Made by a program: the position numbers and the translations under genes
Notes under the pieces: model-generated
Database searches by the model: none
Seen by the model: the letters and a program-made list of their open reading frames with translations, nothing else
Told to the model about the DNA's origin: nothing
Shown here: piece by piece, positions 134 through 32,255 of the stretch
How the letters are laid out: each line of letters starts with the position of its first letter
How positions within the stretch are numbered: the first letter of the stretch is position 1
Assembly (NCBI GenBank): GCA_013425405.1
Contig: JACCLF010000013.1
Coordinates: 1-36,518 of the forward strand
Length of the DNA: 36,518 nucleotides
Direction: 5' to 3'
From: Microcaldota archaeon
GTDB lineage: Archaea > Micrarchaeota > Micrarchaeia > Burarchaeales > Fermentimicrarchaeaceae

Positions 134-194
134 ACAGCATCGTCATACCGCAATGTTTTTATTCTACCTCTTGCATATACTAACGGTGATCAAA

Positions 195-542
195 ATGAGG
201 AATAATACCAAAATGCTTTTCATCCTACTTCTGCTGGGCTTGTCCACGCCAGTTTTTGCGGCAACAACCACATCAATGGCTGCGGCCATAGCACTGGGCT
301 TGTGCGGCTTCAAAACTCTTGTCTATGGTGTTCTGCCAACTCTCGCCCTCATAATGTTCCTGTTTGCAGGGTTGGCATACGCTGCAGGCCAGGCATTCGG
401 TGCTGAAATGAGAGCCAAGGCGCAGGGCTGGGCAATGTCTCTCCTTGTTGGAGGGATAATTGGAATATTCCTTGCAGTGTTGGCACCAATACTTGTAACC
501 ATATTTGTGAGCATGGGTCTGCCTAGCGGATCTGCCTGCTAA
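195..542 (+). CDS. Small hydrophobic protein with signal peptide and two TM segments; VirB2/TrbC/CedA1-like pilin candidate
   Basis: MRNNTKMLFILLLLGLSTPVFA signal peptide, then two long hydrophobic helices around a short polar loop (GQAFGAEMRAKAQGW), the architecture of VirB2-type pilins. Internal ATG at 195 preferred over 153 because GGTGAT lies just upstream (~185-190). First gene of a VirB4-containing cluster. Confidence 0.6.
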   Translation: MRNNTKMLFILLLLGLSTPVFAATTTSMAAAIALGLCGFKTLVYGVLPTLALIMFLFAGLAYAAGQAFGAEMRAKAQGWAMSLLVGGIIGIFLAVLAPILVTIFVSMGLPSGSAC

Positions 543-731
543 CATCATAATCGCACACATGAACCTGCCCGTAGTCAAGGCTTCCGGAAATACACCTTTT
601 TTATTTTTATCCTCTTCTTGATTATCCACGCTGCTTGCCGTAAATAGAAAATACTTTATCAACTCACAGTTAGTTTTAAAAACCACCGAACTCAAACTAT
701 CAAATATAGCAAAGAGCTGGTGGTTTTGACA

Positions 732-1664
732 ATGCTGCTACTGATAGATTTGAGTGGTGGTAAGTTTCTTGGAGGATGGGAGTCGGTTGCCCTACTCGCG
801 CTTCTGGTCTCGTTTGGCATAATAGGAATTGCTTTCGCAATAGGCATAGGCTTCCACTATCGAGAGCTTGAGGAGTGGGCCAAGGCGGAGTTTTACGAGG
901 TAATAATGACCGGCTTTCTACTGGGGGTTCTTGTTGCATTCGTTAACTTTCTATTCGGCATATCAACGAATCTGGCTGGTGGCAACCCGCTGGATATCGC
1001 GCATAACTGCCTCTATCAGATGCTATACGACACTTCCGGAGTTTTCCTTCAGGTGTTCCTCTATAATATGTACATAAGCGCCCTCTCAACGCTGATGCTG
1101 GGCTTCTTCATACCCATAACCATACCCGAGGTGATTACAATACGCATTGGTTCCTACATAAATCCCTGGGCAGGCTTCAGCGGTCTGGCGCTGGGCATCG
1201 ACACCATCTTCAACCTCATCTCCGCAATGATCGCGCTAATACTTGCTCAGCAGGTTCTCCTTGATTTCTTCAAGGTGACAATGTTCAAATACTTCCTGCC
1301 GCTCGGTGTTCTCATGCGAACCTTTCCGCTCACGAGAGTCGCCGGCAGCACCATCATTGCGGTCGCAGTAAGCGCCTACCTCATCTACCCGCTCGCAATA
1401 ATATACACAACTTCACTCTACAACAGCTTTAAGGCAGTGATAGTGCCGGGACAGCCCGGCAACTTCTATAGCAATCTCTTGTTGGGGCCAATTGTCGGAG
1501 ATATAACGGCTCCAATGGGGACAATAAACGACATGATGCGGAACTTCGTCATAATAACAGCATGTTTCGGGTTGACAGTGGTCATAACGCTGTCATCAGT
1601 GCGTTCCCTTGCAACAGCACTAGGAGGCGACCCGGACTTATTCGGACTTGCAAGGCTGATATAG
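732..1664 (+). CDS. Polytopic membrane protein, paralog 1 of 6 (VirB6/CedA-like candidate)
   Basis: Start at 732 chosen (GGTGGT at ~719-724). Motifs LEEWAKAEFYEVIMTGF; FLPLGVLMRTFPLTRVAGSTIIAVAVSAYLIYPL; C-terminal SVRSLATALGGDPDLFGLARLI. Confidence 0.75.
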   Translation: MLLLIDLSGGKFLGGWESVALLALLVSFGIIGIAFAIGIGFHYRELEEWAKAEFYEVIMTGFLLGVLVAFVNFLFGISTNLAGGNPLDIAHNCLYQMLYDTSGVFLQVFLYNMYISALSTLMLGFFIPITIPEVITIRIGSYINPWAGFSGLALGIDTIFNLISAMIALILAQQVLLDFFKVTMFKYFLPLGVLMRTFPLTRVAGSTIIAVAVSAYLIYPLAIIYTTSLYNSFKAVIVPGQPGNFYSNLLLGPIVGDITAPMGTINDMMRNFVIITACFGLTVVITLSSVRSLATALGGDPDLFGLARLI

Positions 1665-1678
1665 GTGGTAACACGAAA

Positions 1679-2689
1679 ATGAAAACATTGATCATATTGC
1701 TTTTTATCGCCAGCATTGCTAGCATAACCTCCCAAGCTGCTCAAATTATTTGCGGTGGAATCGGGTCAACTTGTTGCATAAGCAGCGATTGGGAGACAGG
1801 AGGTTGGATCTACCTAATATCCGTGGGCCTATCAATAATCTTCCTGTCCTTCTCCATAATATACATGAGTTCAAAGATATTTGACAAACCCGAGTGGGTT
1901 GTTTGGATAAAGGACGAGTTCTCCCAGGCCGTCATATCAGTTGTAATAGTGGTCACTCTTGTCATTGTGCTCGGCGCCATCTGCTACATCTTCAACAACC
2001 TTGCAGGAGGAGACCCATTCCAAATAGCACACGGCTATCTCAATGAGGTAGTTTGGGATAAAACTATCAACTTCGCAACAACGGCCTTCCAGGATAGTCT
2101 CATATGCCAGCTGGTTGCCGGTTACAAGACGCAAATGGGGCAATCATCCCTTGGTGTAACATTCCACCAAAGCGCAGGCCTCAAACTGGTTGCAACAGAC
2201 CTGGACTTCCTCTACGCCCTGTTTGCAGGGTTGTCGGCAAGCCTTATGGTTCAGGACATAGGTCTTTCAATAATACAGGCATTCGCCTTCAGGATAATGC
2301 TCCCCCTCGGAATACTCTTCAGAGTATTCCCGTTTCTGAGAAAGGCCGGAGCCATGTTGATTGCTTTGTCAATCGGGCTGTACATAGTATTCCCGCTGTG
2401 CTTCGTGATGGACAAGGCAGTAGTCGACTCGGTAATAAACCAACCCGGCTTCCAGAATTCCCTGATTATGAATGTCGCCCAACTGCAGACAATTGGCGTG
2501 TCGACAATAGTGCTCAGTTTCATATCGCCCTTCCTGCCATGGGCACTGATAGATCTTGTCTGGCTTATGGCGCAGGCTGCGTTACTTTTGCCGCAGGCAA
2601 TTTTCCTCCCAACCCTAAACCTGGTTATAACCCTCACATTTGTAAAAAATGCAGCAAGAGTTTTAAGCCAGAACTTCGGAGAAGGATAA
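1679..2689 (+). CDS. Polytopic membrane protein, paralog 2 of 6, with signal peptide (VirB6/CedA-like candidate)
   Basis: ATG at 1679 (MKTLIILLFIASIASITSQAAQ) preceded by GGTGGT; the longer ORF from 1562 would overlap paralog 1. Motifs PEWVVWIKDEFSQAVIS; MLPLGILFRVFPFLRKAGAMLIALSIGLYIVFPL. Confidence 0.75.
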   Translation: MKTLIILLFIASIASITSQAAQIICGGIGSTCCISSDWETGGWIYLISVGLSIIFLSFSIIYMSSKIFDKPEWVVWIKDEFSQAVISVVIVVTLVIVLGAICYIFNNLAGGDPFQIAHGYLNEVVWDKTINFATTAFQDSLICQLVAGYKTQMGQSSLGVTFHQSAGLKLVATDLDFLYALFAGLSASLMVQDIGLSIIQAFAFRIMLPLGILFRVFPFLRKAGAMLIALSIGLYIVFPLCFVMDKAVVDSVINQPGFQNSLIMNVAQLQTIGVSTIVLSFISPFLPWALIDLVWLMAQAALLLPQAIFLPTLNLVITLTFVKNAARVLSQNFGEG

Positions 2690-2690
2690 T

Positions 2691-3893
2691 ATGACACTAG
2701 CAGCATTCACAGATATATGGAGCAACTGGCAAGCAGTTGCGATAACCGCAGCTACGCTCTCAGTGCTGTTTGCATCCATGGCCTACCTTCTATCGCTTAT
2801 ATTCAGGACGAAGAGCCTTGAAGTTTGGGCCAAGGAGGAAGTATACCAGGCGATTGCAAGCGGATTTATCATAGCGGCTGCGGTGCTTGGGGTGACTCTC
2901 ATGGTGAGCACAGCATGCATCTTAACCGGCGGATGCCCGGCAAATAAAGACCATCTGGATGTAGCAATAAACATAGTTGAGAACCTGAAGAATAAAACAG
3001 TTAGTCAGACGGAATATCTCTTCCAACTAAGCATGCGGGTAGGCTTTATAAAAAGCATGGGCAAGTATTACGACTTCAGCCTTGGGCCGGGTTCGGAGGG
3101 ATGCTTGGTGGGAGCATGCCCAACGGCGTTTGGATGGTCATGGTACATGTGGGCTGGAGCCAGCGTAATAGCCGATTCATTGGACTATACGTTTTCAGTG
3201 TTGATACCAATACTCTCAAGCTTTTTCGCCCAGCTTTGGCTGCTGAAGTTCATACAGCATACCCTTTTCCCAAGCCTTCTCGCTCTGGGGATACTGCTCA
3301 GGACATTCTTCTTCACAAGAAAGGTAGGCGGTTTGCTCATTGCAATCGCGCTTGGTCTTTACACAATATACCCGCTGATGTACGTCCTCATGGGCAGCTA
3401 CATGGACTTCACACCACGCAAATTCTACTACCCAAACAATGACTGGACTCATGGTTATGCATTTATCTCATGCGCCGGGGGCGAATATCTGTCCGGGGGT
3501 TCACCAAATGCTCCGTTCTGCACAGGCTTTCCAGGAGTGCTCTCCTTCATAATACCCGGTCTTCCAACGGCCGTTGGAAACTTTGGCAATGCCGACTTCA
3601 TGTTCAAGAATGGCTGTGATGCCGGCGATCCAAACTCATGTCCTGGCTCGGTATGTTCACCTGATGCTTGGGGTAATACATACTGCGGCGCAAATCCTGC
3701 AGATCCTAAGCCAGATGTATACGCTGGCATGCGAAGCTCATATGATGGAGTGCTCCCAATTGTTGGCTACCTGCTGGTGCCAGCACTCTTCATACCCCTC
3801 ATCATAATACTCGTGACAATAACATTCATAAGGAACCTCTCACCAATGCTGGGAGGAGATGTTGAAATAGCCGGCCTGACAAAGTTCATATAA
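2691..3893 (+). CDS. Polytopic membrane protein, paralog 3 of 6, with long Cys-rich loop
   Basis: Motifs SLEVWAKEEVYQAIASGF; LLALGILLRTFFFTRKVGGLLIAIALGLYTIYPL; C-term TFIRNLSPMLGGDVEIAGLTKFI. Cys-rich insertion CAGGEYLSGGSPNAPFC...NGCDAGDPNSCPGSVCSPDAWGNTYCG before the last TM. Confidence 0.75.
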   Translation: MTLAAFTDIWSNWQAVAITAATLSVLFASMAYLLSLIFRTKSLEVWAKEEVYQAIASGFIIAAAVLGVTLMVSTACILTGGCPANKDHLDVAINIVENLKNKTVSQTEYLFQLSMRVGFIKSMGKYYDFSLGPGSEGCLVGACPTAFGWSWYMWAGASVIADSLDYTFSVLIPILSSFFAQLWLLKFIQHTLFPSLLALGILLRTFFFTRKVGGLLIAIALGLYTIYPLMYVLMGSYMDFTPRKFYYPNNDWTHGYAFISCAGGEYLSGGSPNAPFCTGFPGVLSFIIPGLPTAVGNFGNADFMFKNGCDAGDPNSCPGSVCSPDAWGNTYCGANPADPKPDVYAGMRSSYDGVLPIVGYLLVPALFIPLIIILVTITFIRNLSPMLGGDVEIAGLTKFI

Positions 3894-3902
3894 GGTGTAG
3901 AA

Positions 3903-4841
3903 ATGGTTGTTATAGCCTGGGCAAGTTGGTATGCAATAACCTTCGTGATAATATCAGTAGTTTTGGCCATAATCACCCTGGCGTATATGATAGGCATAGG
4001 CTTCCATCTTCCCAAGCTGCAGGCATGGGCGAAGGATGAGCTTTACCAGGCTCTGGCAAGTGCGATTATAGCAGTCCTCCTCATGTCGTTTGTGTCAACA
4101 ATAAGGACCACAATGATAAGCGTATACGGAAAGGATCCCTTTGAGATAGTTATTCTCGACTACATACCCCAACTGATCGGAAACCTCGGAATCTTCTTCA
4201 TGGGAGTGGTTGAAATAGACGTTTCATTTGCGTTAATGCAAAGCATGCTATTCAGTGCCATGCCCAGCCAGATGGGTTTCAAGATTAACCCCTTCGCCGG
4301 GATGACTACCATAACATCCTTCCTCTCATTAATGATGGAGGCAATTCTTACAGGAATGGCAATACTGTTCGGCCAGCTCACCTTCCTCATATTCATCCAG
4401 AATAGGCTTTCAATCCTCTTCCCAATCGGAATAGCTCTTAGGGCATTCCCGTTCAGCAGGCAAGCCGGTGGCGCCCTCATTGCCACCTTCTTGGGCTTCT
4501 ATGTCTTCTACCCCTTCCTATGGGTTTTCGACCGTGCAATCTATAATGAAGTTTCAGTATTTTCCCTCACTTCGATCAACGCAGGCCTGCCTAACTCTGC
4601 AGGCATAGGGTCTGCCTGCACTGACAACACGGCTCAATGCACAACGAACACCCCGGATATAGGGCTCAATATAATACTGTGGATTGTCAGCGCCATAGCC
4701 TACCCTGTAATCTACTACCTGTTCGTATTCGTCGTTATAATGTCCATTTTCAACCTGCTAACCACGCTTGTGCTGATAAATGAGCTGGCGAAATTACTTG
4801 GTTCTGAAATAGACCTGGGAGGCCTGAGCGGATTAATATGA
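3903..4841 (+). CDS. Polytopic membrane protein, paralog 4 of 6
   Basis: Motifs KLQAWAKDELYQALASAI; LFPIGIALRAFPFSRQAGGALIATFLGFYVFYPF; C-term VLINELAKLLGSEIDLGGLSGLI. ATGA overlap with the next gene. Confidence 0.75.
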   Translation: MVVIAWASWYAITFVIISVVLAIITLAYMIGIGFHLPKLQAWAKDELYQALASAIIAVLLMSFVSTIRTTMISVYGKDPFEIVILDYIPQLIGNLGIFFMGVVEIDVSFALMQSMLFSAMPSQMGFKINPFAGMTTITSFLSLMMEAILTGMAILFGQLTFLIFIQNRLSILFPIGIALRAFPFSRQAGGALIATFLGFYVFYPFLWVFDRAIYNEVSVFSLTSINAGLPNSAGIGSACTDNTAQCTTNTPDIGLNIILWIVSAIAYPVIYYLFVFVVIMSIFNLLTTLVLINELAKLLGSEIDLGGLSGLI

Positions 4842-5899
4842 ACATCCCAAAAAAACTCAAAGTCTGCTTGCTTGTTTTAGCCATATCCTTGGCCGGCTGC
4901 ACCATAGGTGCGGGAGGGACATTGGACATTACTCCTGCGTGCCAGGCCGGAGCCGTAAGCGCTGGCTTTATCAATCTGTGGTCCGCAACCTGGCAGGGAA
5001 TATGCTTCCTTGCGGCTACAACTGTCTGGGCAGTGGCCATACTCGTCTATGTTGTTGGCTTTGCCCTGAACCATCAAAAAGCAATAATATGGGCAAGGGA
5101 GCAGATGCAGGAGGCAGTATTCGCCATGCTCATCACAATGTTCGTGATTGGATTCGTATCATTCCTCTGCACTCTTGACCTGAATTCGCTCGGCTTGGGG
5201 GGAGCATGCTTAGGAGGTGCAACCACTAACTTTATCGATGCGGCTTTCTGCTCGCTCTCTTCCATGTACCTTACTCTCATGCAGGGCTTGCTGCTTGTAA
5301 TTGCCTTAAACTCCGCCATGGCGGCAGCTGCAACATTTACCATAGGGTTTGCCCCCGGCGGAGTCGGGACAGTCTTCACACCGCTCGCAGTCCTGGGCGA
5401 AGTTGCAAACTCGTTTGTGCCTGCATCCATTGTGCTCGTAACAAGCGCAGTCCTTACGATGACCCAGATGGTGCTTGTGAAGATGAGTGCGAGTATATTC
5501 GTAGCCCTCTTCCCCATAGGGGTTATACTAAGGTCTTTTGGAGCAACTAGAGGTTTCGGAGGAGGCCTCATAGCAATAGCACTGGGCTTCTTGCTGTTCT
5601 ACCCGTTTCTTGTAGTGCTCTTCTACGGATCAGTTGGCGGCAATATGGGCATATCCGACGCCATCACCCAAGACTACAGCTCACTTAGCGACTCATTCAG
5701 TAGCGCGGGGCCATCGCCCGGAGACGCGAATTGGTTTGGAGGCATACTCAGCCCACTTGTAGGCTTCATAGGAAAAGCTATAATGGGTGCAATCTTCATA
5801 CCTCTGTTAATGTTCATGATCCTAATAGTATCCATAAAAGGGCTCTCAGCGGCCCTTGGGGAGGAAGTTGACGTGAGCAACCTCACGCGGCTCATATAG
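4838..5899 (+). CDS. Polytopic membrane protein, paralog 5 of 6, with lipobox-like N-terminus
   Basis: N-term MNIPKKLKVCLLVLAISLAGC (lipobox-like LAGC). Motifs KAIIWAREQMQEAVFAM; LFPIGVILRSFGATRGFGGGLIAIALGFLLFYPF; C-term VSIKGLSAALGEEVDVSNLTRLI. Confidence 0.75.
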   Translation: MNIPKKLKVCLLVLAISLAGCTIGAGGTLDITPACQAGAVSAGFINLWSATWQGICFLAATTVWAVAILVYVVGFALNHQKAIIWAREQMQEAVFAMLITMFVIGFVSFLCTLDLNSLGLGGACLGGATTNFIDAAFCSLSSMYLTLMQGLLLVIALNSAMAAAATFTIGFAPGGVGTVFTPLAVLGEVANSFVPASIVLVTSAVLTMTQMVLVKMSASIFVALFPIGVILRSFGATRGFGGGLIAIALGFLLFYPFLVVLFYGSVGGNMGISDAITQDYSSLSDSFSSAGPSPGDANWFGGILSPLVGFIGKAIMGAIFIPLLMFMILIVSIKGLSAALGEEVDVSNLTRLI

Positions 5900-5907
5900 G
5901 TGATATA

Positions 5908-6915
5908 GTGGCAGCGCCAATAATGTGGTGGACAGAACCCTGGAATACTGCCCCCGTTGATGTAACGGGGAATTGGAATATATGGCAGCCGGTAGCCATG
6001 ATAGCAATTTCAGTAGCCTTCGCCATAGTTTCGATTGCCTACATGCTTGGCGTCTTTTTCAGTCTTGATGGTTTAAAAAAATGGGCAAAGGCGGAGTTCT
6101 ACCAAGCTCTGGCAAGTACAGTTTTGGTAGTATTCCTGTTATTGATGATGGACATAATGCTCAATCAAGGCTTCCAGACAATGATTGGAGGCATGAATCC
6201 ATACAGGAAAGCCTATTCTTATATTGATGGAGTTCTAGTATCACTCCATGCGATATACAAGAATGTCTACCTTGTAAATTTCCCGCTAGAATTCCTAACA
6301 ACTTTCTCATTCTACTTCAATGCAGCAGGTCTTGATTTCGCTCCGTTTGAACTCATACTCAGCCCACTTGTCGAGCAGCTGCATTTCCAGGCCCACGTTG
6401 TCGCCATCGCGACAATCACAGCGGCATCCCAAAAAGCTCTGATACACCTCTTCTACAACACGGGCTTTTCGCTCTTCATACCCGCAGGCGTTCTTCTCAG
6501 GATATTCCCATGGACCCGGGGCGCAGGCGGGTTGCTCATAGCACTGGGAATTGGACTTGCAATAGTATACCCAATCATGTTCACATACGTAGCCCTAATG
6601 TCAGAGAATCCCTCAGAGGTTCAGAATAAGGCAAGTCAGCTCGGCAACAGCATAGGCGGTTTCAACTTTAGCGATTACGGCGCGTGCGCCACTGATTTTG
6701 AAGCTGCGACAGATGTTGCTACCCATAGGGCGTTATCCCCAGAGCTCAGGAACGCATCAGCATGGATTCTGGGCTGGGTTTCCGGAGTATGGCTGAAAAT
6801 ATTTTTCTATCCAATGTTTGTGCTGATAGTAACCTTCACATTCATAAGGACAATAGCTCCATTATTAGGTGCGGATATAACCGAGATAGGACAGGGAATT
6901 TTAAAAATACTGTAG
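5908..6915 (+). CDS. Polytopic membrane protein, paralog 6 of 6 (GTG start)
   Basis: GTG at 5908 with GGTGAT upstream. Motifs GLKKWAKAEFYQALAST; LFIPAGVLLRIFPWTRGAGGLLIALGIGLAIVYP; C-term TFIRTIAPLLGADITEIGQGI. Confidence 0.75.
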   Translation: MAAPIMWWTEPWNTAPVDVTGNWNIWQPVAMIAISVAFAIVSIAYMLGVFFSLDGLKKWAKAEFYQALASTVLVVFLLLMMDIMLNQGFQTMIGGMNPYRKAYSYIDGVLVSLHAIYKNVYLVNFPLEFLTTFSFYFNAAGLDFAPFELILSPLVEQLHFQAHVVAIATITAASQKALIHLFYNTGFSLFIPAGVLLRIFPWTRGAGGLLIALGIGLAIVYPIMFTYVALMSENPSEVQNKASQLGNSIGGFNFSDYGACATDFEAATDVATHRALSPELRNASAWILGWVSGVWLKIFFYPMFVLIVTFTFIRTIAPLLGADITEIGQGILKIL

Positions 6916-6930
6916 GTGATCTTTCTGCAA

Positions 6931-7737
6931 ATGGAAAGAAACATAGCTCTTGCCTGCATCGGCATAGGAGTGATTCTGCTAACTCTTAGTTTCGTTTTAG
7001 GTGATCTGGGAGCCATAACCGGTGTGGTTCTGCTGTTAGCTCCCGTCTTCTCAACAATCGGTCTGATCCTTTTCAAATATGGATACTGGATAGTCCCATT
7101 TCTCACCAAGAGGGTAAGGGTGATAGATGTTATAGAAGAGCCCTACACGCTGTCCCCGCAGCAGGATGCAGTCATAAAGAAGGTCGGCAATGTATACTTC
7201 GCCTCAATGTTCATTCACGTGAAGGTGTATGAATCCACCACTGAAAAAAGTGAGGAGCAGAAGGTCGCCTTCATGAATTTGTGGGAGAGGGCAATCTCCG
7301 GTTTGAAATTTGTTACTAAATTCTGCATATCGTCCTACGCAAAGGATTTAACGAAGTATAAAAGCATAATTGAGGGCAGGAAAGCTGAAGCCCAGCTTAG
7401 GCTTGCAAACGAACGAGGCAAGCCCGAGCCAAGCGATGCGGAGTTGGACAAGATCGAGAGAGAGATAGCCATGTGGGAGAACATGATCTCAAAAATTTCT
7501 GCAGGAGAAAATGCAATAACGCAGATAACCTACATAATGACTTCCGGTCAGGGTCCAACACCCGAGATGGCGCTGGCTGCTGTGAGAAACCAGGCAAATG
7601 AAATAAAATCCACAATATCGACCACCCTCAATGCCGAGGTCGCGGTGCTTATAGGAGACGAAATGAAGAGATGTTTTGAATGGGAATACATGGTGCCTCC
7701 TACGATAAGGGAGGAAGGCGCCCAACAGGTTGTTTAG
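6931..7737 (+). CDS. TM hairpin plus soluble domain; candidate VirB3/VirB4-N-terminal-domain-like protein, copy 1
   Basis: Two N-terminal TMs, then LSPQQDAVIKKVGNVYFASMFIHVKVYES...AFMNLWERAI...KISAGENAITQITYIMTSGQGPTPEMALAAVRNQANEIKSTIS...LIGDEMKRCFEWEY. ATG 6931 preferred over GTG 6916 because GGTGAT overlaps the latter. Clear paralog of the next gene. Confidence 0.6.
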   Translation: MERNIALACIGIGVILLTLSFVLGDLGAITGVVLLLAPVFSTIGLILFKYGYWIVPFLTKRVRVIDVIEEPYTLSPQQDAVIKKVGNVYFASMFIHVKVYESTTEKSEEQKVAFMNLWERAISGLKFVTKFCISSYAKDLTKYKSIIEGRKAEAQLRLANERGKPEPSDAELDKIEREIAMWENMISKISAGENAITQITYIMTSGQGPTPEMALAAVRNQANEIKSTISTTLNAEVAVLIGDEMKRCFEWEYMVPPTIREEGAQQVV

Positions 7738-8562
7738 ATGCCAGCAATAACTATAGGAATAAATGACAAGACAGTTGCGGCTACTACGCTTGGCATCGCA
7801 TTTCTATCCATACTGCTAGCCTTCCAAGCGCGTGGATTAGGCGTGCTCCAAATAGCAATAGTGGCAATAGGAATTCTATCCTTGTTGCTAGATGCTGTTG
7901 TCTACAAGGTTGGTTTTATTATCCTACCTTTCATAACCAGGATTCTAAAAGTCAGGGAGATAAGAACCGGAGGCTTCGAAATTCCACCTTCCCAGGACGT
8001 CATACTCAAAAACGTTGGCGGCGTCTACTACGCAATACAATTTATGTACGCACGTCTATATGAATCTGCAAGCGTTGGTGTCCAGGATGAACAGTCCTCC
8101 TACATGGACCTGTGGGAGAGAGCAGTTGCAAGCGTGTACTTTCCATTCAAGTTCTGCGTGCTCACCTTCTTGGAGGATATCCTGAAATTCAGGGAAGATG
8201 TTGAAACGAGAAGAGCTGCGGCCCAGTTGAGGCTTGGAAGGGAGAGGGAGAAGCCGCGTCCCGATGCAATAACCATAGACAAATGGGAGAGGGAAGTTGC
8301 CAAGCAGAATGAGTTGCTCGCTAGGCTCTCGGCAGGTGAGAAACCATTGGGCACTTTGATGTACATTACAACCCTCGCAATTGGAGTTAGCCCTGATGCT
8401 GCCACGGCTATTGTGAAAGGGCAGGCAAATGAGCTGAAAGCGACTTTCTCCAATGCGCTCAATGTGGAAATACTTGAATTGAAAGGGGAGGACATGAAGA
8501 GATGTTTTGACTGGGAAATTGCATTCCCCTCAACACTTAAAGATTTAAAAGGCTCGATATAA
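7738..8562 (+). CDS. TM hairpin plus soluble domain; candidate VirB3/VirB4-N-terminal-domain-like protein, copy 2
   Basis: Aligns end to end with the preceding gene: YMDLWERAV, AAAQLRLGREREKP, LSAGEKPLGTLMYITT, VKGQANELKATFSNALNVEILELKGEDMKRCFDWEI. Starts directly after the preceding stop. Confidence 0.6.
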   Translation: MPAITIGINDKTVAATTLGIAFLSILLAFQARGLGVLQIAIVAIGILSLLLDAVVYKVGFIILPFITRILKVREIRTGGFEIPPSQDVILKNVGGVYYAIQFMYARLYESASVGVQDEQSSYMDLWERAVASVYFPFKFCVLTFLEDILKFREDVETRRAAAQLRLGREREKPRPDAITIDKWEREVAKQNELLARLSAGEKPLGTLMYITTLAIGVSPDAATAIVKGQANELKATFSNALNVEILELKGEDMKRCFDWEIAFPSTLKDLKGSI

Positions 8563-8572
8563 AAGTGTATCC

Positions 8573-10102
8573 ATGGGAGTGTTAAAAATACAATCAATAA
8601 TGAGCAATGAGCTTTCCAAGAGGCCCCTTTTTGTGAGACCCCCAGAGCCACCTGCAGAGTACCTAACCCTTGATCCCTCAAATTCAATCTACGTGGGAAA
8701 AACGAAAATATTTCACGTGCCTTTCAACTGGTCCTACCAGTATCTGACAAATCCACACATATGCATAGTGGGGATAACCGGAGCAGGAAAATCCTACTTC
8801 GTAAAAACCTTCCTGTCTAGGGCTGCATTCGTCTGGGGAAGCAACGCAATAATAATTGACTGGGCTGGCGAGTATAAGGCATGGGTCAAGCAGACAGGAG
8901 GAAGAATCCTATCACTCGGAAAGGGGGATTTCATAAACCTCCTGGACCTTGGAGGGATGAAGCCTCTTGACAGGGTGAAGCAGATTACAAGGACTCTTGA
9001 AATACTGACAGATATAAGCCAGTACCCGGAGCAGAAGAGACTCACCGAGCAGGCTCTCGAGGAAACATATACTGAAGCTGGCTTCAAGCTCAATGAGACT
9101 GAACACAAGGGCTCTGACGGAAAGCCGTTGCCCCCGCCCACGCTGAAGGAAGTGGTGAAGATACTTGAGGATAAGCTTAAGTCAGGCGCCTATGAGTTCC
9201 CGGCAGAACTGGAGAATGCAATATACCGCCTGAAGAACTTCTGCAGGCCTGGTGAGGATTATTTCGCGCAGCAGAGCACTGTAAAGCTGGAGGAGCTTAC
9301 AGACGTTGGGCTGGTGGACATTGACCTGAGCGGGCTTCCAGATGAAGTTATGAGAGGGCTGGCAGGCCTCTTCGTACTCCAATTCCTCAAGGAAAAGATG
9401 AGATCGACCGGATGGTCCGCAACAAAGGGCCTGAGAGTCCTTGTTGTTCTGGATGAAGCATGGAAGATAGCAAAGGATGAAAGGTCCGATGCCATAATGA
9501 TTGTGAGAGAGGGAAGAAAGTACAACTTCGGCCTCATAGTTGCTTCCCAAAACCCCACCGACGTACATGAGGCAATATTCTCCAATGTTGGCACAACATT
9601 CATCATGAGGGTGAAATTCCAGAATTTCCTTAATTACCTACAGGGCTCTCTCAACTTCAGCGATTATATGAGGGGCGAGATAAGCAAATTCGGTGTCGGC
9701 CAGTGCGCAGTGAACATGGCATTCCAAACTAGTACAAAATTCCCGGAAACTTTCCTGCTTGAGAAAATTCATGGCGAAGAGCCCCTTGAGGAATATTTTC
9801 TGGACGTGCAGTCCATACTCACCCAGGCTCAGCTGGCGGATGAGAACATCCCGCAAAACTATGCTTTTGAGAAAAATGAGCTTAAGAACAAGCTTACTGA
9901 GTTTGGCATGGACGACATCCGCGCATCCGAATTGATAAATATGTTCAACAGGAATAACAAGCGCATGGATATAATCAGCTTCGTGGAATTTCTTGAGAAG
10001 AACGACCTTGCAAGGGGCAATATAACCTCCTTCCTGAAGGCGGTTGGAATGGAGGATTCGATGATAATAGACATACTAAACAGAATAGGAGTTGGAGGGT
10101 AA
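8573..10102 (+). CDS. VirB4/CedB/HerA-superfamily ATPase
   Basis: Walker A GITGAGKSYFVK; Walker B with VirB4-like signature LRVLVVLDEAWKIA; EGRKYNFGLIVASQNP sensor-like motif. An internal start at 8600 (MSNELSKRPLF) is also possible. Confidence 0.9.
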   Translation: MGVLKIQSIMSNELSKRPLFVRPPEPPAEYLTLDPSNSIYVGKTKIFHVPFNWSYQYLTNPHICIVGITGAGKSYFVKTFLSRAAFVWGSNAIIIDWAGEYKAWVKQTGGRILSLGKGDFINLLDLGGMKPLDRVKQITRTLEILTDISQYPEQKRLTEQALEETYTEAGFKLNETEHKGSDGKPLPPPTLKEVVKILEDKLKSGAYEFPAELENAIYRLKNFCRPGEDYFAQQSTVKLEELTDVGLVDIDLSGLPDEVMRGLAGLFVLQFLKEKMRSTGWSATKGLRVLVVLDEAWKIAKDERSDAIMIVREGRKYNFGLIVASQNPTDVHEAIFSNVGTTFIMRVKFQNFLNYLQGSLNFSDYMRGEISKFGVGQCAVNMAFQTSTKFPETFLLEKIHGEEPLEEYFLDVQSILTQAQLADENIPQNYAFEKNELKNKLTEFGMDDIRASELINMFNRNNKRMDIISFVEFLEKNDLARGNITSFLKAVGMEDSMIIDILNRIGVGG

Positions 10103-10104
10103 GG

Positions 10105-10404
10105 ATGGCAAAGTCATATTCCTTTGACAAAAGCGATCTGAGGAAGAAGCTCAAGCTGTTCGGCCTTAGCGATGCGCATCTTGAGGAGATAATGACACTC
10201 TTTGACAAGAAGAACAAGCGCATGGAAGTGATTGCGTTTGTGCTCAACTTGGAGAAGTTTGGTGTCACAAGGGCGCAGATTTCCAATTTCCTTAAAGACC
10301 TTGGAATAGAGGAAACAACGCTCATGAGCGTGTTCTCACGGGCTGACTTCAAGAAGGCCGGGGTTGATGATAAAAAGGTTCAGGAAGTCGTGCTGAAAGG
10401 ATGA
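10105..10404 (+). CDS. 99-aa stand-alone homolog of the C-terminal helical domain of the upstream ATPase
   Basis: YSFDKSDLRKKLKLFGLSDAHLEEIMTLFDKKNKRMEVIAFVLNLEKFGVTRAQISNFLKDLGIEETTLMSVFSR aligns with ATPase C-term YAFEKNELKNKLTEFGMDDIRASELINMFNRNNKRMDIISFVEFLEKNDLARGNITSFLKAVGMEDSMIIDILNR. Confidence 0.8.
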   Translation: MAKSYSFDKSDLRKKLKLFGLSDAHLEEIMTLFDKKNKRMEVIAFVLNLEKFGVTRAQISNFLKDLGIEETTLMSVFSRADFKKAGVDDKKVQEVVLKG

Positions 10405-10408
10405 TGCT

Positions 10409-10762
10409 ATGAAAAAGTCCATCTGCGTAGTTTGCAAGAAGGAGAAGAAGGGAAGAAGAGTTGAGGAGGATCTATACCTAGAGGCCATTAGAAAGATAAA
10501 GACTCGGCTGGGCATTGCCAAGAACAACACGCTTGTGGTATGCGATGATTGCATTCCCAAGGCAAAGGAGAAGAGGCGCAGGTTTGAGAGGACTCTGGCA
10601 ACCTGGGCAATCCTAGCAACTCTGCTGTTCGTGATGCTTGTTGTGATATCCCAGACACTACAGTCTATCTTTTTCAGCCTTGTAGCCGCAGTGGTATTCA
10701 TACTATTCTCGCTTTTATCGTATTTCCCAAGAGTTGAAGAACATGGCAGAAAAAAAGGATGA
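10409..10762 (+). CDS. Zn-ribbon plus two-TM membrane protein
   Basis: N-term CVVCKKEKK and CDDC (CxxC...CxxC), then two hydrophobic segments TWAILATLLFVMLVVIS and IFFSLVAAVVFILFSLLSY. Confidence 0.65.
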   Translation: MKKSICVVCKKEKKGRRVEEDLYLEAIRKIKTRLGIAKNNTLVVCDDCIPKAKEKRRRFERTLATWAILATLLFVMLVVISQTLQSIFFSLVAAVVFILFSLLSYFPRVEEHGRKKG

Positions 10763-11531
10763 AACAAAGATTGAGAAGACGGAGCAGAAGCCGGTTGATA
10801 AGAAGGAACTCAAGGACGAGGTTCCTGCACCGCAGATTGCGGGCTTCAGACTCCCAGCTAGGAGAATTAAGGACTTGAGCGAGATAACAAGCGCTCTATC
10901 CCTGCTAAGTTCAATCCAGCTGGCCGTAGAACAAGATTACGTGGCTGCATTGAATGTTGAGAGCAGGGACATAAAGAAGAACCCGTATCTATTCTCAACA
11001 GTGTACTTCAGGCCTAGCGAAATAGAGATTGTGTACACGATCGTCCCGGGAATCAGCAAGAGGAAGAGGAGCATAGAAGTGCTCAAGCACTTTCTGAACA
11101 TCCTGACCCTCATAGGGCATAACTACGAAATAGACCACAAGCAGTTCTACCAGATTGTAAGGAATTACCTGACTGAGATAACGGAATTTGCCACATCAAC
11201 ATACGATGAGATATACGCAAAATACGATGTGCTGAACGGCGAATCGCTCTCCTTCCAGAGAAAGATTGAGAATCTCAACGCCTCTCTTGCCAAAGTCACA
11301 AAGGAGACGATAGAGCTTAAAGCAAGAAACGATGAGCTGGTGCTTAGGCTAAAAGAGCTTGAATCAATCTCTGATGATACTCTCAAGGTGAAAATACAGG
11401 AGTGGCTTGAGCTGCATAACAACGAGATAAACATAACAGAGTTCGCCAAGGTATACAACGTTCTGGAATCCCGGGTAGAGCACCTGCTAAATGCAATGGT
11501 CACCCAGGGCAATCTTGAGTACATCGGGTGA
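10743..11531 (+). CDS. Cytoplasmic protein with coiled coil and C-terminal winged-helix-like segment
   Basis: Start may be 10734 or 10743 (MAEKKDETKIEKTEQK). Heptad-like region KIENLNASLAKVTKETIELKARNDELVLRLKELE, then wHTH-like LELHNNEINITEFAKVYNVLESRVEHLLNAMVTQGNLEYIG. Confidence 0.6.
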   Translation: MAEKKDETKIEKTEQKPVDKKELKDEVPAPQIAGFRLPARRIKDLSEITSALSLLSSIQLAVEQDYVAALNVESRDIKKNPYLFSTVYFRPSEIEIVYTIVPGISKRKRSIEVLKHFLNILTLIGHNYEIDHKQFYQIVRNYLTEITEFATSTYDEIYAKYDVLNGESLSFQRKIENLNASLAKVTKETIELKARNDELVLRLKELESISDDTLKVKIQEWLELHNNEINITEFAKVYNVLESRVEHLLNAMVTQGNLEYIG

Positions 11532-11535
11532 GCCC

Positions 11536-11733
11536 ATGGAACAAACTTCCAACAATGAAATACTAGAATCCCAATTCAAGAAAGAGACTTACCTCTTCGC
11601 TGTAAAAAAGAGGTTCCAGAACACAAAGCACTTCGTCATAAAAAAGAAATACGAGGAGGAGCAGAATCCGCTGGGTGAGAAATTTACTGAGGTGTTCAAG
11701 AAGCTGGGCTGGGTCAAAGAGGGTCAAAGATGA
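11536..11733 (+). CDS. Small charged protein (65 aa) of unknown function
   Basis: MEQTSNNEILESQFKKETYLFAVKKRFQNTKHFVIKKKYEEEQ...; sits between co-directional genes with ATGA overlap to the 802-aa gene. Confidence 0.55.
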   Translation: MEQTSNNEILESQFKKETYLFAVKKRFQNTKHFVIKKKYEEEQNPLGEKFTEVFKKLGWVKEGQR

Positions 11734-14138
11734 GGAGGAGAACTATACTCATACTCATCGCGGTTCTTATAATTCTTGGAATCGCCGGCGGCCTTTTTCT
11801 GTACCTCTATTTCCTGCCTCCGCCTCCTCCCCCGTCCATCATGAACTCCAGCGTGGAGCTCAACGTGCTGGATTCTGGAGTACTTGACTACGGCAGCTTG
11901 GCCGGAAGCCTTCCAAGCAAGGTCATATTCCTGCTAACGCGGGTGAATGGAAGAAACATCACAAATGCAAATATAAGTGTCAAGCTTTATGACAGCGAGC
12001 TGCCCCGCGACATATACCTTCTGGACTACTCCAGCCCAGGCTTCCCGGGCTGCACAGAATGTGATGGTCTGCCGGACTTTACGAAATCACTAGAGGCAAC
12101 AATCAAAAAGTATGGGCTGCTGGAAGCCAACTCCACAATCAACCAGATAAAGATAAATCATCTGGACAAGCTGACTCGCCGCTCCATAATAGTGGTGCCA
12201 ACTGGAAAGATACCTGCACAGCTCGTTGGCATGGAAAGCGGTCCGGACCTCAATGATTTGATGAGGAGGGGATTTGTTGTAATATTCCTAGGGCGTGACC
12301 TTGATGAGGCGTTCTACGCGAACGGTTCGGTTGTGCGCATACCTTCGGACCGGCTTACGTCGTACGGAATCAGCTATATACATCGAGATGACCTGTCTAC
12401 CTGCGAGGGATACAGACTTCAGAACCCCAGCTTTGTTGTTTCGGCTAAATTTGAAAATTTGGTAGCATGCTCAATGTCCTATGTGCAGAAAGGAGAGGGG
12501 TATCTCTTCGTTCTCCCCAGAAGCATTGACATAGGGTGGAATGCAAATGGGCAAATCGCCGGAGAAGATGTCGGGCGCCTTATATACGAGATCAGATGGA
12601 AGGACCCGTTAACCACGGGCATGCTGAGCATACTCGCGCAAAGGATCAATGAGTCCAATTCCAACACTTCAATGATATTCATGGCACCTTACGCCAACGA
12701 CTCGGGGTGGACGAGAATATTCGTTAATGCAACTACGCTCAATGGCAGTACCCTATACTTCGTCACGGATAAGAAAATAACCAACCCAGTCAAGGGAAAG
12801 ATAATTCATATACCGCAGGGTGTGGGGGACGACAAAATACTCATAGACTTCCAATTTTCCGAAGATTTCCCGAAATTAAGGGATGTAAACATAAGCGTGG
12901 TTGTATACAAGGACATGCAGCGATTTGAGAAGCAATTCGCCCATTCCATAAAAATCAAGACGGAGTACCTGTTCTCAAGCTACTTCATTGTCGACCTGCC
13001 AATTGGTAACTACACACTCCGGGCTGAGGACGATGACGGTTATGTATACGCGCAGTCGTTCTTGAACGTTCCGCCAATAAATGTAACCATAGCTCCAACA
13101 GTCTGGAGTTCGGAGCCCCAGATTTTCCAATTCTCTGCACTTGTGCCAAAGTACATCATACCGAGAAATTCAATTGAATCTTCTAAATTAGCACCTTTGA
13201 CTTACAGAGTTGCGTACTTAACGATAAACAAAACCCCGGGTAAGAACCTGTTCCCTCCCTACTTGAATGTATCTGGTTCTGATGGAGTATTCTCATTCGC
13301 ACAGAGCCCATCTCTAGATTATGGTCTGTACACATTCAAAGTGAACATAAGCAGGCAGATAATAATAATCAACCAAACCAACTCCAAACCTGCCTCATGG
13401 CTCGACAACCCAATAAATGTCGCCATAATTGTGATAACAATTTTAGTTGCAGTGGTTGCAATCGCATTGAGAAGGCCAGAGAAACCGGTGTATACCCTCG
13501 ATGTCCCCGATTTCCCTCCTCTTGAAAAAGTTGTAGTTCCAATCTCAAAATTCTCTGTGCTCAGTCTGTTCGACTCGGTGAATAAGGAGTATAAGTGGAG
13601 CTTCATGCCGCTCAGCCCCCAGGAGCTTAAGAATGAGATGAGAAGGAAGATAACCTACAAAGGCGTGCCAGTCCTCATAACTGATTACAACTTGGACAAG
13701 ATACTTGAGGAGCTTATAGAGAGCGGCGATGTTGCAAAGGCGCTCAACTTCTACGGCCTCAAGACCTGGGAGACCAAAAGCGGCAGAGATATGCGGTACC
13801 TGGCATTGTTCAGGCTGCTGAGGAACTTCCTCATAAACAATGCAATACCGTTCACAGACTTGAACCAGAGGAAGGACTGCGGTATCCTAGCAACTGTGAA
13901 GGGAGAAGGCTTCTACATCCACATATACACAGATGAAAATACATTAAAAAGGGCGCTTGAGCTCACTGGGGCTGGAAAGAATTTCATAGTATTTGAAAGC
14001 AAGAAGGAGCTGGAGGAGACTGTGAAAAAGCTAGACCTCTCCTACAACTCGCTTGCCGTCATCATCAAATCCGAAATAGGAATAGGGAAACTACAGCTCG
14101 TGCATCCAGGCAATTTCAGTGAGATGCTTGGTAGGTAA
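11730..14138 (+). CDS. Bitopic membrane protein (802 aa): N-terminal TM, large ectodomain, second TM, ~200-aa C-terminal cytoplasmic domain
   Basis: N-term RRRTILILIAVLIILGIAGGLFLYLYF; many N-x-S/T sequons; Rossmann/GATase-like segment RSIIVVPTGKIPAQLVG...RRGFVVIFLG; TM NVAIIVITILVAVVAIAL; then a charged globular domain. Confidence 0.75.
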   Translation: MRRRTILILIAVLIILGIAGGLFLYLYFLPPPPPPSIMNSSVELNVLDSGVLDYGSLAGSLPSKVIFLLTRVNGRNITNANISVKLYDSELPRDIYLLDYSSPGFPGCTECDGLPDFTKSLEATIKKYGLLEANSTINQIKINHLDKLTRRSIIVVPTGKIPAQLVGMESGPDLNDLMRRGFVVIFLGRDLDEAFYANGSVVRIPSDRLTSYGISYIHRDDLSTCEGYRLQNPSFVVSAKFENLVACSMSYVQKGEGYLFVLPRSIDIGWNANGQIAGEDVGRLIYEIRWKDPLTTGMLSILAQRINESNSNTSMIFMAPYANDSGWTRIFVNATTLNGSTLYFVTDKKITNPVKGKIIHIPQGVGDDKILIDFQFSEDFPKLRDVNISVVVYKDMQRFEKQFAHSIKIKTEYLFSSYFIVDLPIGNYTLRAEDDDGYVYAQSFLNVPPINVTIAPTVWSSEPQIFQFSALVPKYIIPRNSIESSKLAPLTYRVAYLTINKTPGKNLFPPYLNVSGSDGVFSFAQSPSLDYGLYTFKVNISRQIIIINQTNSKPASWLDNPINVAIIVITILVAVVAIALRRPEKPVYTLDVPDFPPLEKVVVPISKFSVLSLFDSVNKEYKWSFMPLSPQELKNEMRRKITYKGVPVLITDYNLDKILEELIESGDVAKALNFYGLKTWETKSGRDMRYLALFRLLRNFLINNAIPFTDLNQRKDCGILATVKGEGFYIHIYTDENTLKRALELTGAGKNFIVFESKKELEETVKKLDLSYNSLAVIIKSEIGIGKLQLVHPGNFSEMLGR

Positions 14139-14203: not shown

Positions 14204-17200
14204 ATGGGTGGAGCTAGAGGGTATTCTAAAAAGCTCTTTCTCCTACCATTGTTAATCTATCTTCTTGCTCCAGCAACATTCTCAGCCTCATTGCCTCTTG
14301 CAGCACTCAAGGGCGGCATTGACGGGCAGCTCTACATCCCTAATCCAGCCTACGTGCCGAATCTGCATGTTATCAAAATAGAGCTGTGGTGCAACATGAG
14401 TGACACGGACTGCCAAAGTGGCATATGTGGATGCTCCCGCAGTGTGGGCGATCAGACTGGAGGGGTCCGTCCGTATTCAACCATCAGTCACTGGCCTGAC
14501 GGAACGGTTGATGGTCAGGACACTACAGCCGCTGCCCGTTCATTTGGAGCTGGCGAGGGAATGTCACTATGGGATTATATGGCGGATATAGACCCTGATA
14601 GAGTGGTTGATGGCGAGGATACCACACAAATAGCTAGAAACTTTGGACAGGGCATATTCACCTACTCCACTGATTTGACGAACATAAAAGTAGTATTTGA
14701 TACTGGGGACACCGTATACCCCGATTCTTATGGGTATATCAACATTCCCGCAGGCGCTACTGCCGGCCTCCATAGTTTCACAGTCTACAACGGCTCAAAA
14801 ACAGTTGTGGCACTAGCGACTTTCTGGAATGTTAGCGTGCAACCCTCGCAGCCTTCTGCTCTTGTAGCAATGAAAGGGGGCACTAATGGGTATCTATATA
14901 TTCCCAGCCCAACCTACGAGCCGAATGTAACGAGTATTAAGATAGAGGAGTGGTGCAACATGAGCTCCACAGACTGCCAGACTCTTACTTTTCCAACAGC
15001 TCCACCCAACCCACCTCTCGTTATCACCAAGTGCGGTTGTGACCGTCTGCTGTGCGACCTGGCTGGGGGAGTAAATCCCTACTATCCCCCAGGTGGCGGA
15101 CCACTCTTTTGGCGTACTGCGTCGTGGCCCAACGGCCAAATTGACGCAGCAGATTCTTGGACAAGTATATATCCGCCTACAACACTGGAGGGTTATAACG
15201 TATTCCCATTTACTCCATGGGAGTATGAGGCAGACTGCGTTCCAGATAGAAACATACAAATGTCTGACCTAATCCCTACGTGGTTCACTGGCTTCACCGG
15301 AACCTACTCTACAGATATCTCAAACATAAATGTGGTGTTTGATACTCCTGCTGGTGCTCCCCCTGTGTCCGTTAGCTCACTGGGATATGTAACCATCCCA
15401 GCAGGTGCAACCAGCTTTACAGTTTACAACGGTCCCAATACCGTAATGGCGCTGGCAACATTCTGGAATACCAGCGTGAAATCCTCGCAGATGACGCAGT
15501 CAGCAAGCCCGCCTTCATTCCAGTTGCCGGGCTACCCGGTCACATTCACATGCAACTATATAAATTCATCAAATAACAAGATACCTGGAGCGATTGTTAA
15601 CGTATACATAAACGGGACAGCATACCTAACCACGGAAACAGCAACTGGCTATCAACTCAACCACACATTCACCACTATCGGAAACTATTCATGGTATTGC
15701 AGCGGAACTGACCCAACGGGGGAGTACACTCCCGCAGTTGCACCCCCAGAGAATTATGAGATAAAACCACTATACTGCAACATATCATGGGCTGCTGCCC
15801 CTTCTGCTCCAGGTGATTTCAAAACAAATCCAGACCAACATTTCGCACAGGCGGTTAACTACCAGGTAACAGTTGCGGTTAATCTGACGGATAAAAACGG
15901 AGCTCCAGTTCAGAACGTCAGAGCTACAGTAACTCCTCCCGCGACTCCTCCTCCGGGCATGGGCGCGGCGCAGCTAACGACACTTTCGGATGTCAATGGA
16001 ATTGCCTGGGTCACATTCACCGAACCCGCAACAATTGGCAAATATACGGTTCTCTCAGCATCATCAACACTGTGCCTCGGTGGGTATGATGTGCAACCAG
16101 CCGACATTACCTCCTACATAAATGCCTACCACGATGTCGCAAAAAGCATCAATGTAATCGACCCCAACCCCAAAACAATTTACGTAAACCCCGGAGATTT
16201 TTACAACATAACTATTGAAATTCTAGACCAGTTTGGAAATGTGTGCAACAGCTCATTTGACGGCACACCCTACAACTATACCACAATCCCGCCGGAATAT
16301 AACAGTACGGTAGGCATAAATCAAACTGTTAAGAATTCAACCGATACATGGTACTACGATATCCCCCTATGCAGCATGCGCTCTCCTTTGGAATGCTATA
16401 CGATTTTCAATAAATCAACCAACCCCCAGGGTATCCCCGTTGGGCTTGAAGGCATATACACATTCCAGCTCTTTGCTCATATACCGGAACCTAATACGAT
16501 TATTAATAACATAACAAACGACATCGAACAGTTTGATTTGACCTATCCCAGTGCTGCTAACACAAGCCTCAATGATTCGACGTTTGATTCCTCAGCCCGC
16601 ACCCTGACTGGAGATAGTGTAATTGTAGTCTACAACCAGCCCCACCCCCCTCCTGATCGTCTTCGAGTCATTGCCCAACCTCACCAGATAAGCGTCAATG
16701 ATTCATTCAATATAACCGTACAGGCAATTCTGCAGAATGACTCAGTGGATAAAAACAACAACAACATCACTCGTGTTATCAGATTACATCGTCTTGACGC
16801 GCCCCAAGTTCAAGATCAAGATATAAACAATTCATGCCAGCTTGTAAATGGGGTATGCACTTTCAATGTAACCTCTAACAGATCGCTAAACCTCTTCAAT
16901 GTCAGCGGCGTATACAGGATATTCGCCATACAAACTTCGGACAGTAAAGTTAACGGCACTGGCACTCTTATAGTTGGCACCGGGGCAATAGACCATATCA
17001 ATGTCACAGTTAACCACAATGGAGTCTTCACGAGTCTGCCCTTCTACGCAACTGCGAGCGTTCGGGATGCGGGAGACAATATAATAACAAACTTCACTGG
17101 AGACATGAATATAACCTGTCCGCCTTTTACAACCGACCCGCCCCAGCAGAGCGTATCACTGACTCCGGCTGACGAGGGCCAGACCACTTTCACCGAGATT

Positions 17201-31052: not shown

Positions 31053-32255
31053 TCATACGGGCATTATTCTTACAACCACCGGCTCCATCTCATTTGAGGT
31101 GAGAACTATGCACTCAAACTGCTTCAGGTTTCTTATGGCCTTACCTACCACATCCCTCCGGTCGTAGTCGTTCCCTCCTGCAATGAGATTAGTGATGTAA
31201 TCGTGCTCCTCTGGCTCCCTCTGGTAGAATGCAAATGCAACCGCAGAGTTTGCAATTATGGACCTGTCAAGGCTCTTGGCCATCTGGTTGCTTGTTATTA
31301 TTCCCAGCCCATACTTCCTGCCCTCCGAGACTAGCCTGCCAGGGAGTGAGAGTTCCCCCGGACTGCTTATGCATACTCTGTGCGCCTCGTCTATCACTGC
31401 AAACAACCTCAGCCGGTGTGTGAGCTTCTGGCTCAGCATGTGGGTGTAGAGCTTCCTAAGAAAAGTCTCAATGAAAAGAGCCTGCGCCTCGCTGCTCCCC
31501 AACTCTGCTATGCTGAAATCATTCAGCCCTTCTAGAATTGTGCTGAAGGGAAGGGTCGTCTTAGCAGAGAATACATCCCCCCTCATGAGCGGGTAGAGCC
31601 TCTTGCTGAGGCCTGAGTAGCCCTGCCTTCCATGCCCCCTTCCCATTGACTCATTTATGCAGTCGTAGACATCCTGCATTGTGGGGGGTTCATTGCACCA
31701 GCTTCCCTGCCCTGCCTGCGTTATGCCCCTGCGCTCATATGCTCTCTCTGCAGAGGCTAGCAGGCTGTAAGCCTGTATATCTCCCAGCTTCAAAATCCTC
31801 TTAAGCATTGTTACGTTTTCAGATATTCTCTCAGCCGGACTCGCACCATCAAGCTCCCACATGTTTATGCTGGACTCCTTCGGGGAATGCACTTTTCCTC
31901 CAAGTTCCAGTGCAAAATCCACGTATTCTGAGTGAACGTCGAATATGCTCACGGGGAGCTTGAGCTTCTCCCTTATACCCCTTACCAACTTCTTACAGAG
32001 GGTGGACTTCCCGTACCCGCTCATACCGGATATGTTCACATGTGGGTTTGCCTCTGAGTTGAAGTCAATGGAAAACCTCCCTCCAGTCCCTCTCCAGACC
32101 CATTTTGTGATTGGCTTGAGTCTCACAAAAGGATGGTATTCGGTTATGTATGATTTTCTCAAAAAAGCAAGCTCGCAAATTTTCTCGCCAACATCAACAA
32201 CTCCGGAATCAGATTTTTTCATAACTCCCAGAATATTTCCAAACATTTTAACCAC
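31053..32255 (-). CDS. HerA/VirB4-like P-loop ATPase (second copy, divergent)
   Basis: Walker A GMSGYGKSTLCKKL; Walker B LRLFAVIDEAHRV; EGRKYGLGIITSNQ; GGAGGTGGT Shine-Dalgarno upstream of the start. Confidence 0.88.
   Translation of the reverse strand: MVKMFGNILGVMKKSDSGVVDVGEKICELAFLRKSYITEYHPFVRLKPITKWVWRGTGGRFSIDFNSEANPHVNISGMSGYGKSTLCKKLVRGIREKLKLPVSIFDVHSEYVDFALELGGKVHSPKESSINMWELDGASPAERISENVTMLKRILKLGDIQAYSLLASAERAYERRGITQAGQGSWCNEPPTMQDVYDCINESMGRGHGRQGYSGLSKRLYPLMRGDVFSAKTTLPFSTILEGLNDFSIAELGSSEAQALFIETFLRKLYTHMLSQKLTHRLRLFAVIDEAHRVCISSPGELSLPGRLVSEGRKYGLGIITSNQMAKSLDRSIIANSAVAFAFYQREPEEHDYITNLIAGGNDYDRRDVVGKAIRNLKQFECIVLTSNEMEPVVVRIMPV

Follow-up and report, generated by a model that had tools for sequence, protein, structure and literature searches.

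Six VirB6-like paralogs kept in fixed order in a secretion-type operon of Micrarchaeota, and their possible assembly into a hetero-hexameric channel

Introduction

Why should an ultrasmall archaeon encode the same kind of polytopic membrane protein six times in a row, and are the six products alternatives to one another or parts of one complex? The question is raised by a stretch of DNA of 36,518 nucleotides (contig JACCLF010000013.1, positions 1 to 36,518; the window) from the genus of Candidatus Fermentimicrarchaeum (Micrarchaeota). The assembly comprises 0.95 Mb, and the closest named relative is the complete chromosome CP058998, whose corresponding ATPase is 87% identical. A single plus-strand gene run spans positions 153–14138 of the window, with a pilin gene, the six paralogs p1–p6, two related genes d1 and d2, an ATPase gene, and four further genes. 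A preliminary description made from the letters of the window had proposed that the six are non-redundant, VirB6-like subunits, perhaps of a hetero-hexamer, and had contrasted them with VirB6 as a protein normally encoded by one gene. That contrast holds for plasmid R388 with its single gene, but not generally: Rickettsia has five VirB6 copies (rvhB6) and Anaplasma four (PMC2653234, PMC7648143), and Saccharolobus has two VirB6-like proteins, CedA and CedE, which are both required for DNA import and for which a hetero-oligomer has been proposed (PMC11868833). We find that the Micrarchaeota family occurs as one gene or as six, and that the six keep their identity by position across lineages, which we suggest reflects a channel built from one copy of each.

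Results

The six genes are as follows; p1–p5 were assigned from open reading frame, alignment, and position orthology, and p6 from position orthology and an AlphaFold2 model whose top match in the PDB is the VirB6 protein of R388.

720..1664, plus strand: VirB6-like paralog p1
1679..2689, plus strand: VirB6-like paralog p2, without the common C-terminal tail
2691..3893, plus strand: VirB6-like paralog p3, in the window longer than the other five
3903..4841, plus strand: VirB6-like paralog p4
4838..5899, plus strand: VirB6-like paralog p5; tail signature G(E/Q)(E/R).D
5908..6915, plus strand: VirB6-like paralog p6

All six are tandem, co-directional, adjoining genes (720–6915) that touch or overlap by a few bases, which fits the expectation for coupled production. 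Position 732, at which copy 1 had been thought to begin, is usable as an alternative start, but a GTG start lies upstream at 720; in copy 2, the first in-frame start is at 1562 and the likely start at 1679 or nearby. Compared with p1, p2–p6 have 24–29% identity, and a MAFFT alignment contains 16 invariant columns, including W53 (in a WAK.E motif), G196, R200, F202, R206, G209, I213-A214, and P224. Most of these columns fall within the landmarks that the preliminary description had recognized in all six. A simple hydropathy scan predicts between four and nine transmembrane segments per paralog. The profile of the six retrieves well over 100 relatives, the more distant ones at E-values of 1e-10 to 1e-30, and the kinship of the six is therefore not due to chance; that they are tandem paralogs of one polytopic family has thus been borne out. 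All six are under purifying selection relative to the nearest relative (ratio of nonsynonymous to synonymous substitution rates, dN/dS, 0.08–0.36; dS about 0.9–1.3).

For comparison, the relatives were divided into four groups: F, the Fermentimicrarchaeum clade; M, families f10 and f14 and their kin; and A and B, which stand for the two six-gene sets found in those genomes that carry a pair of clusters. The C-terminal LGG..GL..LI tail is missing from p2 in all four groups, so that the weaker C-terminal motif seen earlier in copy 2 is real and an inherited trait of this position. Most of the p5 sequences inspected carry the tail signature, and by median length p3 exceeds the other positions in groups F, M, and B. 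Two side observations concern p3 and p5. In the B sets of seven loci (L144, L148, L150, L155, L158, L161, L174), p3 is greatly lengthened to about 630–1400 residues, and an open reading frame of about 1000 residues often follows directly after p6. In the window, p5 opens with a lipobox-like signal (..LAISLAGC; 4838–4900). L034 has the signal too, but the more remote p5 orthologs that were inspected lack it.

The number of copies was examined by running the profile of the six on 80 Micrarchaeota ATPase loci and 118 related genomes and by tallying the clusters gene by gene in the fetched stretches; the genomes are mostly metagenome-assembled, and every set was read within one contig. The family was matched in 92 of the 118 related genomes. 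Exactly six copies were present in 51 of 51 complete clusters (41 genomes), and none of the complete clusters counted had two to five or seven genes. The list of loci for groups F and M had been picked for showing six hits, and the loci left out by that choice were also inspected. Loci cut by a contig end carry p3–p6 (twice), p4–p6, or p6, in agreement with the six-gene order, and two frameshifted loci hold p1–p6 in pieces. Genomes with odd tallies, inspected as possible exceptions, again had six genes per complete cluster. An apparent absence of the genes at about half of the ATPase loci was ruled out, as the six-gene sets are located elsewhere in those genomes. A single six-gene set is typical of families f1, f10, and f14; in many other families there are two, located on separate contigs and each again with six genes in identical order.

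Besides these sets, there are solo operons in which one VirB6-like gene is followed by a d gene and the ATPase gene. The solo operon is a minimal one-gene form of the machine. Family f18 has this form alone, and in other families it accompanies six-gene sets; in one genome (G048), the six-gene set and the solo operon are each present twice. Solo operons were noted at L194–L196, L199–L202, L163, L167, and L168, with a recognized pilin in L163, L196, and L199. Other parts of the machine vary in number, with one to three pilins, one or two d proteins, and one or two six-gene sets. As observed, then, the copy number of the VirB6-like gene is either one or six, with nothing between.

Orthology of the six positions was assessed in several ways, of which the out-of-sample test is the strongest: in 11 clusters outside the profile training, 66 of 66 genes matched the profile of their own position best, in the order 1–6. 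Profile–profile score matrices were fully diagonal for F–M, F–A, F–B, and A–B, nearly so for M–A, and blurred at positions 3–5 for M–B. In a tree of groups F, A, and B, from which two long-branched clusters of one genome had been left out, every position formed one clade (support of 98, 99, 94, 84, 98, and 99% for positions 1–6). An independent origin of the F copies was rejected in this tree (log-likelihood difference 154; approximately unbiased test, p = 2.4e-56). With F and the very divergent group M only, the test against independent expansion was not significant (p = 0.36); for F, A, and B, the question was decided by the denser sampling of the tree described above. A quick FastTree analysis of 306 proteins gave 18 changes of position label, with a minimum of 5 and a mean of 197 for shuffled labels. 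A fixed set of orthologous paralogs is thus kept across lineages, as in hetero-oligomeric rings of the MCM2-7 and CCT type, in which each copy is fixed to a position. The preliminary description had held that homologous loci should keep the same number and order of paralogs, with the positions clustering in a tree, and that variable copy number with lineage-specific expansion would speak against its idea; the loci behaved in the former way and opposite to the latter. Six genes in every complete cluster, their fixed order, their six orthologous positions, and the rejection of independent expansion strongly support the view that the six are non-redundant.

Are the six VirB6 proteins? Searches with p1–p6 or with p6 against Pfam, NCBIfam, PHROGs, and the PDB sequences gave no meaningful match. 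In archaea, sequence similarity to VirB6 is a weak criterion, as CedA and TedA are no more than about 13% identical and their kinship was recognized through profiles (PMC9905601). For the AlphaFold2 model of p6 (mean predicted local distance difference test score, pLDDT, 74.5), R388 VirB6 (TrwI) ranks first among 350,542 PDB chains, with a probability of 0.95, an E-value of 0.15, and a TM-score of 0.31–0.37, and three R388 VirB6 chains are among the top 33 PDB matches. A fold search in BFVD returned no informative match, and the phage collection contained no match to p6. The genes of pNOB8, considered as a source of an archaeal plasmid VirB6, carry only hypothetical annotations. As is typical of the VirB6 family, a polytopic membrane protein is encoded together with VirB2 and VirB4 homologs, both in the operon of the window and in the solo operons elsewhere. 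From the modeled fold and the context, the six likely belong to VirB6 proper. The label VirB6-like is hence upheld by the operon and by the top fold match of p6, but not by sequence profiles or by the E-value of that match.

The neighbors of p1–p6 in the gene run are the following.

153..542, plus strand: VirB2-like pilin, 129 residues; PF18895, profile match to TrwL
6916..7737, plus strand: d1, two transmembrane segments plus an alpha/beta part, paralog of d2 (34% identity); its predicted fold is taken from d2 alone
7738..8562, plus strand: d2, two transmembrane segments plus an alpha/beta part; AlphaFold2 model with a Foldseek match to the R388 inner-membrane complex
8573..10102, plus strand: CedB/CedD/VirB4/HerA-type ATPase, 509 residues; NCBIfam CedD/CedB, Pfam DUF87 and AAA_10
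10105..10404, plus strand: free-standing paralog of the ATPase C-terminal domain, 99 residues; 37% identity to ATPase residues 427–504
10409..10762, plus strand: CxxC protein with two transmembrane segments, kept in the operon of relatives
10734..11531, plus strand: coiled-coil protein, kept in the operon of relatives
11730..14138, plus strand: 802-residue protein with transmembrane segments on the N- and C-terminal sides, kept in the operon of relatives

The pilin matches PF18895 (T4SS_pilin) with an E-value of 4.5e-4, short of the curated cut-off, and a profile of 14 pilin homologs matches R388 TrwL/VirB2 with an hhalign probability of 86 (E 4.8e-6). The VirB6-like profile also retrieves pilins, at E-values of 1e-6 to 1e-9, with weak hhalign support for this kinship; CedA and CedA1 have been reported as kin (PMC9905601). 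The ATPase is closest to CedD (3e-20) and CedB (4e-19) in NCBIfam, followed by VirB4 models (6e-15 and weaker), all under the equivalog cut-offs, and in Pfam it matches DUF87 (1.8e-14), AAA_10 (1.6e-12), and the TraG P-loop family. By sequence similarity, the locus thus contains the VirB4/CedB-type ATPase and the VirB2/CedA1-type pilin that characterize the superfamily of type IV secretion systems (T4SS) and Ced–Ted systems. The d2 model (pLDDT 83.7) has its top PDB match in the R388 inner-membrane complex, to a chain of 685 residues (Foldseek probability 0.98, E 0.055), which we take to be VirB4 because of its length. The fold of d2 suggests a VirB4 N-terminal domain that is encoded apart from its ATPase; the idea that the d proteins combine VirB3 with the N-terminal part of VirB4 had been noted before this result, and VirB3 homologs have been stated to be absent in archaea (PMC11868833). 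In other operons, d is present singly, in contrast to the d1/d2 pair of the window. The free copy of the ATPase C-terminal domain (10105–10404) adjoins the ATPase in relatives too. Taken together, the locus is a T4SS/Ced-like machine.

Outside the operon, a 3522-residue protein without a Pfam match is encoded directly 3' of it (14204–24772), with a 2034-residue relative at the equivalent place in L035; the giant protein in this place recurs within the genus. It is followed by a 1758-residue protein without a Pfam match (24782–30058), apparently rich in coiled coils and with a hydrophobic N-terminal segment. On the minus strand, 31053–32255 encodes a second HerA/CedD-like ATPase of 400 residues, a possible coupling protein or helicase. 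The Pfam hits obtained for the window proteins included no relaxase; the genome itself was not searched for one.

Discussion

A ring with six places best accounts for the six kept positions, the duplication of whole sets, and the existence of a one-gene form. We propose, with a probability of about 0.58, that the six are obligate, non-interchangeable channel subunits of a chromosomal T4SS/Ced-like transfer machine, forming a one-of-each hetero-hexamer on a hexameric ATPase. An ancestral single VirB6-like gene would have given rise to six no later than in the ancestor shared by the compared lineages, and each copy would then have become fixed to one position, as in MCM2-7 and CCT. In the membrane, p1–p6 would form the hetero-hexamer atop the CedB/VirB4-type ATPase, with d1 and d2 (VirB3-like helices plus the VirB4 N-terminal domain) possibly tying the ATPase to the membrane, and the ring may serve both as the base for building a VirB2-like pilus and as the passage for the substrate. 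The solo operon would produce a homo-hexamer in place of the one-of-each assembly. The ring and its 1:1:1:1:1:1 composition are what we infer from the conservation pattern, and the VirB6 homology on which the model draws is suggested by predicted fold and context. DNA import would be the favored substrate and direction, by likeness to Ced only. The more detailed picture of an obligate hetero-hexameric channel matched 6:6 to its ATPase, with a one-gene and presumably homomeric version in some of the same genomes and possibly a 6-start or symmetry-mismatched pilus, has in our view an even chance of being correct.

Several observations weigh against the hetero-hexamer. Where a genome has two sets, these are usually found at a distance from the operon that encodes the ATPase. 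An hhalign comparison with seven bacterial VirB6 proteins was no better than the reversed control, so that the profile–profile link to VirB6 envisaged in the preliminary description did not materialize, and the E-value of 0.15 for the fold match between p6 and R388 VirB6 is below significance. A distance-correlation trial for the order of neighbors in the ring gave no signal. Finally, six places would depart from known systems: in R388, VirB6 forms a pentamer over a hexamer of VirB4 dimers (PMC9259494), and conjugative pili of bacteria and archaea have 5-start helices (PMC9905601). How the 5:6 mismatch between the VirB6 and VirB4 layers is arranged, and what role it has, is unsettled in T4SS biology (PMC12624023).

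The main rival explanation builds on this fivefold symmetry and assumes that five paralogs form a VirB6-like pentamer, with the sixth acting as a plug, an assembly factor, or an ATPase adaptor. The best candidate for such a separate role is p2, the one position at which every group is without the C-terminal tail; however, p2 retains the family core and its rank in the order in every cluster, and the solo operons indicate that one gene can suffice, which makes this arrangement unlikely. It is also conceivable that the family is not VirB6-like at all and forms a complex that exports or anchors surface proteins, for instance the 3522-residue neighbor, or acts as their scaffold. The missing sequence-level link to VirB6 and the recurrence of the giant protein 3' of the operon would agree with this, but the solo operon of pilin, VirB6-like protein, d, and ATPase has the layout of a minimal T4SS, the pilin matches VirB2, and R388 VirB6 is the top fold match, with three of its chains among the first 33, so that we consider such a function quite improbable. 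We regard it as about equally improbable that each of the six makes a homo-oligomeric channel of its own, or that they are interchangeable variants suited to different substrates or partners, maintained side by side. Multiple diverse uptake channels were proposed by Gillespie et al. for the Rickettsia VirB6 copies (PMC2653234), and the long, fast-changing loops, of more than 1000 residues in some p3 proteins, could face partner cells; yet families of this kind usually gain and lose members, while the 51 clusters show neither gain nor loss and the sets are duplicated as wholes.

The hetero-hexamer model can be compared with four known systems. The Ced system of Sulfolobales is likewise a chromosomal, archaeal T4SS-like machine with a two-transmembrane pilin and more than one VirB6-like paralog, and the ATPase of the window is closest to CedD/CedB in NCBIfam, although its scores are far under the CedB/CedD cut-offs. 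Ced has two VirB6-like genes (CedA/CedE), whereas the window has six in a fixed tandem order, and a separate protein with two transmembrane segments and an alpha/beta part replaces part of VirB4. The rvh T4SS of Rickettsiales shares ancient, divergent VirB6 paralogs in an operon beside virB4 and vertical inheritance (PMC2653234, PMC7648143). It differs as a bacterial diderm machine with a recognizable VirB6/TrbL domain, and its copy number varies between four and five, with virB6e lost in R. massiliae, whereas sets of the window family always have six; unlike rvh, this family also shows duplication of whole sets and one-gene operons. The R388 machine (TrwI/VirB6, TrwK/VirB4, TrwL/VirB2) contains the PDB chains that rank first in fold comparisons with p6 and d2 and is matched, in TrwL, by the pilin profile, but it has a single VirB6 gene and a homopentamer, its VirB3 and VirB4 are arranged otherwise, and no sequence similarity of its VirB6 to the six was found. 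Patescibacteria are, like the host of the window, ultrasmall episymbionts, and PF18895-type VirB2-like pilins are among the search profiles for their T4SS; that system is bacterial and MPF_FATA-related, and the accessible text of the report does not mention six VirB6 genes (PMC12102498).

We found no earlier report of this machine in the open-licence papers searched. Our analysis assigns to ultrasmall archaea a widespread chromosomal machine that had so far lacked annotation and that may take up DNA or make contact with partner cells. As its channel genes number either one or six, a rule kept at about 20% identity, the size of the ring would be readable from genomes alone. The transition from homo- to hetero-oligomer in a secretion channel thereby becomes testable, and if our model is correct, one family would hold a natural pair of homomer and heteromer.

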